The notes under the pieces: model-generated | The model's input: only the letters and a program-made list of their open reading frames with translations | Database searches by the model: none | What the model was told of the DNA's origin: nothing | Shown: positions 13,732 through 14,639 of the stretch, in pieces | Numbering within the stretch: position 1 is the stretch's first letter | Layout of the letters: each line of letters opens with the position of its first letter | NCBI GenBank assembly: GCA_026394375.1 | Contig: JAPKYJ010000005.1 | Location: 1 to 34,673 of the forward strand | Reading direction: 5' to 3' | Source: Methanomassiliicoccales archaeon | GTDB taxonomy: Archaea > Thermoplasmatota > Thermoplasmata > Methanomassiliicoccales > UBA472 | Length of the DNA: 34,673 nucleotides | Made by a program: the position numbers and the translations under genes

Positions 13732-13742
13732 CCCCCCCAGCG
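13732..13742. repeat. Left copy of 11-bp target-site duplication
   Basis: CCCCCCCAGCG directly precedes the left inverted repeat of the element. An identical copy lies at 14629-14639 directly after the right inverted repeat. Confidence 0.7.
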
Positions 13743-13901
13743 GCTTTGCACTTAAACCCTCTCAGTATCAGTACTTTGGGTGCAGACACTGGACTTTAGG
13801 TGCGGGAAGTCCGCCTCCACTCTAGAATGAAATCTACGGCAATAAGGAGGCTTTTAGACGGAAACATTTTCTATCTCCTCTCCTCCTATACCCTCTAGGT
13901 G

Positions 13902-14102
13902 ATGCATACGGCCAAGAACCAGGACGTTTTCATGGAGATGAACCTTTCACCATTCATCGGGAAATGGGTGGCCATCTGCGATGATAAGGTGGTCGCCAGT
14001 AGCCCGACCTTCAAAGAAACGTTCAACGAGGCCAAGCGTCTTTGTCCAGGCAAGCATCCTCTTGTTGCGATGGTCCCCTCGAACGAAAACCTCATCCTAT
14101 GA
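13902..14102 (+). CDS. DUF5678-like small protein
   Basis: 66 residues from ATG at 13902, with a GTG directly before it as an alternative start. The core SPFIGKWVAICDDKVVASS, then TFKETFNEAKRLCPGKHPLVAMVP, matches the pattern of DUF5678 proteins (GKWVA-hx-KVVA...EA...P-hV-VP), a small alpha/beta domain of unknown role. It is the first gene inside the transposon-like block. It ends four bases before the protease-like gene and so is translationally linked to it. The leader lacks a good ribosome binding site. An AAGGAGG at 13845-13851 is too far upstream to serve it. Composition is less GC-rich than neighbouring genes, which fits acquisition by transfer. Confidence 0.7.
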   Translation: MHTAKNQDVFMEMNLSPFIGKWVAICDDKVVASSPTFKETFNEAKRLCPGKHPLVAMVPSNENLIL

Positions 14103-14106
14103 TCTC

Positions 14107-14559
14107 ATGACGATGAAGTTCAAGTATCGGGTGATCGTAGCTCCAAATGGTTCTGTCAAACTTAGACCGGTCATACCCGTTCAATTCATCGGCTCGAAGG
14201 ATGTTTTGGACACATATGCGATGTTGGATTCCGGCGCCGATGTCTCAGTGATATCAAAGGATATGGCCGAAGCGATTGGCGTTTCAATGGATGCGGAAGT
14301 CATCATATCCAATGGCGTTACGGGACCTGGAGAATTTATTCCGAGTCGCGTGAACATCCATATCGAAAAGGGTCATGAGGATTACAGATTCAATATCCCT
14401 GTCTCGATAATCCTCAAACCATACGAATTGCCGCCATTGCTCGGGCGAGCTGAGGTCTTCGATAAATTCGAGATAACCTTCAAGGAGCATGATAGGCGGA
14501 TCGAAATGACCCGCATCTCCCCTAAGGCGATACCAGCGTTCCAGAAGAGGCATTTCTAG
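14107..14559 (+). CDS. Retropepsin-like (clan AA) aspartic protease domain protein
   Basis: 150 residues. The active-site pattern of retroviral-type proteases is AMLDSGADVSVIS (38-50), with Asp41 in DSGA. The second family feature, PPLLGRAEVFDKFEITF (109-125), corresponds to the hydrophobic-hydrophobic-Gly-Arg strand near the C-terminus. One such domain has one catalytic Asp, so it must dimerise to work. No signal peptide or membrane helix is seen, so it is probably cytoplasmic. It starts four bases after the DUF5678-like stop without its own ribosome binding site. The pair makes up the entire gene cargo of the element. The target is unknown; cleavage or binding of the DUF5678 protein is a natural first guess. 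The stop is TAG. Confidence 0.75.
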   Translation: MTMKFKYRVIVAPNGSVKLRPVIPVQFIGSKDVLDTYAMLDSGADVSVISKDMAEAIGVSMDAEVIISNGVTGPGEFIPSRVNIHIEKGHEDYRFNIPVSIILKPYELPPLLGRAEVFDKFEITFKEHDRRIEMTRISPKAIPAFQKRHF

Positions 14560-14628
14560 AGAGGATTTGCACGCAGACTCCCCCCTGCACTGAGACTTTG
14601 GGTGCAAGTGAGACTTATGGTGCAAAGC

Positions 14629-14639
14629 CCCCCCCAGCG
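14629..14639. repeat. Right copy of 11-bp target-site duplication
   Basis: CCCCCCCAGCG, identical to 13732-13742, directly follows the right terminal inverted repeat of the element. Confidence 0.7.

Follow-up and report, generated by a model that had tools for sequence, protein, structure and literature searches.

A DUF5678–retropepsin-like protease operon on a non-autonomous cassette of probable IS5 type in a Methanomassiliicoccales archaeon

Within the stretch of DNA analysed here, referred to as the window (34,673 nucleotides of a Methanomassiliicoccales archaeon; assembly GCA_026394375.1, contig JAPKYJ010000005.1), two small plus-strand genes are enclosed by a pair of inverted repeats. 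The enclosed block lies between two divergently transcribed genes, interrupting neither of the flanking reading frames, and is organized as follows.

13742–14629, plus strand: the whole non-autonomous element, 888 bp
13733–13741, no strand: left copy of the 9-bp target-site duplication, CCCCCCAGC; the 9-bp reading comes from a census of related elements
13742–13751, plus strand: left terminal inverted repeat, GGCTTTGCAC, 10 bp; the same ends occur in other elements
13773–13784, no strand: subterminal copy of the end motif, ACTTTGGGTGCA, read from the sequence; a probable transposase-binding repeat
13793–13803, no strand: second subterminal motif copy, ACTTTAGGTGC, read from the sequence
13899–14102, plus strand: DUF5678 protein (Pfam PF18929), 67 residues from GTG, or 66 from the ATG at 13902
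14107–14559, plus strand: retropepsin-like (clan AA) aspartic protease, 150 residues; DSGAD at codons 41–45 (14227–14241), LLGR at codons 111–114
14595–14606, no strand: right subterminal motif copy, ACTTTGGGTGCA, read from the sequence
14620–14629, minus strand: right terminal inverted repeat, GTGCAAAGCC, 10 bp; from the sequence, a shuffle test and the element census
14630–14638, no strand: right copy of the 9-bp target-site duplication, CCCCCCAGC; from the sequence and the element census

The ends and the duplication are beyond chance: the combination of a perfect 9-bp inverted repeat and, outside it, a perfect 9-bp direct repeat occurs once in the window and in none of 200 dinucleotide shuffles. 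A sequence-only reading of the window had placed 9-bp inverted ends at exactly these positions and judged their geometry improbable by chance; both points hold, and the ends are better read as 10 bp (GGCTTTGCAC/GTGCAAAGCC). The direct repeat that it described as an 11-bp duplication is where it was placed, but its true length is 9 bp, as kin elements share nine positions and match irregularly at the outer two. The additional C and G behind the longer figure are flanking bases that match the element's own terminal bases by chance, one on each side. Like the subterminal motif copies listed above, ACTTTAGGTGCA-like copies are found near the ends of related elements. With a GC content of 49.0% against 59.4% for the window, the block is not undercut by any sliding 888-bp window, and its two genes are only 4 bases apart, much as the same reading had described a coupled pair of lower GC. 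Also as described there, no transposase is present within 13742–14629.

The first gene encodes a member of the DUF5678 family (PF18929, E = 1.3e-12, 47.8 bits, curated cut-off 23.2). Its predicted structure is a small beta-beta-alpha-beta domain followed by a flexible, conserved C-terminal tail (pLDDT 83); the tail motif, T-M-I-L/F, is conserved in the alignment and falls in a region of low model confidence. The fold has no significant match among solved structures, and a sequence search of structures returned nothing. A literature search on the function of DUF5678 yielded no report, its one mention among 5.39 million papers concerning plant disease. A weak phage match was observed (E = 0.08).

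The second gene product scores just above the cut-off of Pfam Asp_protease_2; the profile of its family matches the FIV protease (E = 5e-7), and its single-chain model is confident (pLDDT 88). The active-site motif DSGAD, intact in the window protease, is invariant across 17 relatives, and the hydrophobic-hydrophobic-Gly motif of clan AA is present as LLGR. Given a glutamate at the near-invariant position G116 and a long branch in the protease tree, activity of the window copy is not assured. The tree lacks resolution and gives no indication of whether the window copy originated outside the family. A phage or plasmid origin was rejected: no annotated phage or plasmid yielded a match to the protease, and a PHROGs search found none.

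Recurring in 13 of 147 Methanomassiliicoccales genomes is the same end pattern, with a reversed control pattern in none; further copies of the ends are thus found both in the genome of the window and elsewhere in the order. They border an IS5-type SWIM/DDE transposase, miniature elements and other cargo-bearing elements. Flanking repeats were scored over nine positions only where both ends could be paired, and most such kin have 7–9/9 duplicated positions.

Window element: 888 bp; duplication 9/9; DUF5678 and protease
Own genome, C4: 86 bp; duplication 9/9; empty
Own genome, C3: 189 bp; no duplication
G069 (L044:1754–3210): 1457 bp; duplication 8/9; SDH-type ClpP-like serine protease and a 69-residue gene product
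G003 (L053:1735–3076): 1342 bp; imperfect duplication, 7/9; TnpB-type RNA-guided nuclease gene
G093 (L051:2933–4954): 2022 bp; outer flanks 9/9; an IS110-type transposase between two 126-bp miniature elements that are nearly identical
G078 and G087 (L046:2296–2343 and L049:2457–2504): 48-bp end-to-end hairpins of two transposon ends only; no target duplication

The outer 9/9 duplication in G093 suggests that the unit was mobilized in its entirety, as a composite. In G069 a second, unrelated protease is carried as cargo by the same transposon family.

The closest approach to a full element is in G017, where contig 6 (L055:4046–5394) has a left end close to its terminus, with TCATGGAGG in front of it, and contig 1 (L054:1–5127) has a right end close to its start, with TCATGGAGG, the identical 9 bp, behind it. 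If the two belong together across the contig break, they delimit one putative autonomous element of more than 7 kb. Encoded here are a pair of DNA methyltransferases, of which one has an Mrr-type domain, and a 422-residue transposase, directly behind which the right end is found (DDE_Tnp_1, 3e-24; weak SWIM zinc finger, 5e-4). This transposase reaches 136 bits against NCBIfam IS5_2, 4 bits under the cut-off of 140, and its best annotated plasmid relatives are named IS5 family. A full element with the same ends and a transposase was what the sequence-only reading had proposed to look for; G017 has a transposase beside such an end, in a candidate element split between two contigs. In the host genome assembly (99.84% complete) no cognate transposase was found, so the window element is probably stranded there. 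The host's own IS5-type transposases were rejected as helpers, the best being 24–27% identical and having no matching ends nearby.

To the right of the element is a PUA gene. All searched genomes of the family have a relative of it, with the zinc-ribbon gene in front in several of them. The DUF5678–protease pair adjoins the PUA gene in none of 21 family relatives. The empty site that the sequence-only reading had proposed to look for is accordingly seen at gene level in these 21 genomes; none was found in them at base level, the left neighbour of the element differing among genera. The pair at this locus probably arrived by insertion, with transposition as the presumed event. The same ends in the host genome and in relatives, once beside a transposase, and the absence of the pair here from the family bear out the earlier description of a non-autonomous mobile cassette. 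We class the window element as a mobile insertion cassette belonging to the IS5/IS903 type; as a carrier it is of an ordinary, already known kind.

The cargo has a far wider distribution. A scan of a genome collection (one genome per species), queried with a five-member protease alignment as a nine-member one was too diverse, found 18 archaeal loci with protease relatives, in Methanomassiliicoccales, Woesearchaeota, Nanoarchaeota, Pacearchaeota, Archaeoglobaceae, Brockarchaeota and others. DUF5678 directly precedes the protease at all 16 loci whose contig extends upstream, and in the order Methanomassiliicoccales it lies upstream of every intact protease. In one copy in G058 (L189:1279–1905) the two are fused in frame, with the active site retained. 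Genomes have one or two copies of the pair, other DUF5678 genes standing without a protease, and among close relatives strong purifying selection acts on the two genes alike (dN/dS of about 0.1 or less at unsaturated dS). DUF5678 and the protease thus form a conserved, widespread archaeal operon. The pair occurs at many other archaeal loci, and none of those in the searched order is bracketed by two such ends; the proposal that these ends spread the module generally is not upheld.

Two individual loci are of separate note. In G009 (L134:2412–5459) the pair closely follows genes for E1 (ThiF), E2 (UQ_con) and JAB, which together make up a ubiquitin-like set. The sole locus found in a scan of viral contigs is at a contig end in IMG/VR (L120:4729–5360), with a divergent DUF5678-like gene (E = 0.06) ahead of the protease.

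Among the examined loci the protease is broken or lost beside an intact DUF5678 gene in G016 (with G043 identical over that contig stretch), G098/G099, G011, G066, G107 and L130; the opposite pattern was not observed, and in G104 both genes are broken. The frameshift shared by G098 and G099 (L116, L117) leaves both protease halves highly conserved (dN/dS of about 0.03), and represents either a break of very recent date or, possibly, programmed frameshifting. The G066 protease is truncated by the contig end yet already divergent, and that of the Nanoarchaeota locus L130 has one stop. DUF5678 of G066 and G107 remains strongly constrained (dS of about 1.5, dN/dS 0.03). Protease-first decay is suggestive only: the asymmetry is weak evidence because the protease gene, at about 2.2 times the length, is the one that chance alone would strike first, six of six hits falling in it with a probability of about 0.11 if distributed by length (about 450 against 200 bp).

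What the two proteins do for one another can be read in more than one way. DUF5678 might be the main functional protein or the substrate, the protease serving as a maturation enzyme that clips DUF5678 or a cellular target in a housekeeping or stress role, with no part in addiction or defence. Conservation of DUF5678 where the protease has gone, as in G066 and G107, would fit such a role, as would one or two copies per genome and the existence of protease-less DUF5678 genes; sporadic presence and a location on a mobile element are, however, unusual for housekeeping genes, and the protease losses are undated. We regard this account as plausible, though somewhat short of an even chance.

An addiction or defence role of the pair is possible. 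Here the protease would be a toxin and DUF5678 a labile, blocking antitoxin, in a toxin–antitoxin-like addiction or abortive-defence module that makes the cassette hard to lose. A small upstream partner, tight coupling and obligate pairing are consistent with this; so are the loci, several in number, where the protease is lost and DUF5678 kept with none showing the reverse, and the siting of some loci among HicA/HicB, PemK, ParE and YafQ genes. All 17 proteases match the PADLOC phage-defence candidate PDC-M52B, and many also PDC-M08B. Set against these points are the longer mutational target offered by the protease, the failure of DUF5678 to match any antitoxin model or PADLOC partner model, the candidate status of the PDC systems, and the lack of a control for the toxin–antitoxin neighbourhoods. 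Membership of PDC-M52 or PDC-M08 requires both component models, of which the B models alone were matched. On balance we consider the toxin–antitoxin account a live rival, though an unlikely one.

That the ends are a chance repeat around an ordinary resident operon, as the occurrence of the pair outside such ends elsewhere might suggest, is highly improbable: the shuffles gave none in 200, kin elements share the ends with 7–9/9 duplications, the exact block is low in GC and the pair is missing here in relatives, results that together weigh strongly against it.

The reading we prefer, and hold with good confidence, is an 888-bp IS5-type (IS903-like) cassette with a 9-bp duplication, carrying a DUF5678–protease operon in which DUF5678 has a partner role. 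Such a cassette would have inserted between two host genes, duplicating 9 bp of target, after mobilization in trans by a SWIM/DDE transposase recognizing the GGCTTTGCAC ends. The protease would act as a cytoplasmic homodimer. DUF5678, judging by gene order and the one fusion, may be its dedicated partner, and is likely to be its regulator or substrate; the conserved C-terminal tail perhaps contacts the protease. Operon order, obligate pairing and the fusion, together with the disappearance of the protease ahead of DUF5678, are consistent with a unit of protease plus controller. More speculatively, and with a rather low probability in our estimation, the pair could represent a widespread two-gene system of archaea, not described before, whose small member controls the HIV-protease-like enzyme for addiction or antiviral purposes, here on an IS5-type cassette.

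The main interest of the locus is therefore the unstudied DUF5678–retropepsin operon: the carrier itself is ordinary, and its cargo shows a retropepsin-like protease moving in the company of an obligate small partner. At under 700 bp the pair is compact; it is found widely across archaea, DPANN lineages included, and has fused naturally once. It could give DUF5678 a function and reveal archaeal use of retroviral-type proteases.

MICs and transporter ISs have been named previously (PMC3129680). As in MICs and MITEs, the window element and its kin consist of IS ends around passenger genes, or around nothing, with no transposase; unlike them, the window element has a DUF5678–retropepsin operon as cargo, in an archaeon, and we found no description of such cargo. 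A further comparison is with IS903, a member of the IS5 family. IS903B has the inverted repeat GGCTTTGTTGAATAAATC and a 9-bp target duplication (PMC10569121). Elements of IS5/IS903 type resemble the window element in ends that start GGCTTTG and in the 9-bp duplication; their DDE transposase has a candidate counterpart of IS5 type in the putative autonomous relative in G017. They differ in that the ends here continue CACCTAAA and are supplemented by further subterminal copies, no transposase is present in the window copy, and the G017 transposase has a SWIM zinc finger at its N terminus and falls just short of the IS5_2 cut-off. The window-type protease resembles the B proteins of the PADLOC candidates PDC-M52 and PDC-M08, whereas DUF5678 fits none of the partner models of these systems, themselves candidates. 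Among clan AA enzymes such as the HIV and FIV proteases and Ddi1, the window protease shares a single domain, the D-S-G active site and the profile match to FIV protease; in contrast to them, it is archaeal, belongs to no polyprotein and is regularly preceded by DUF5678.
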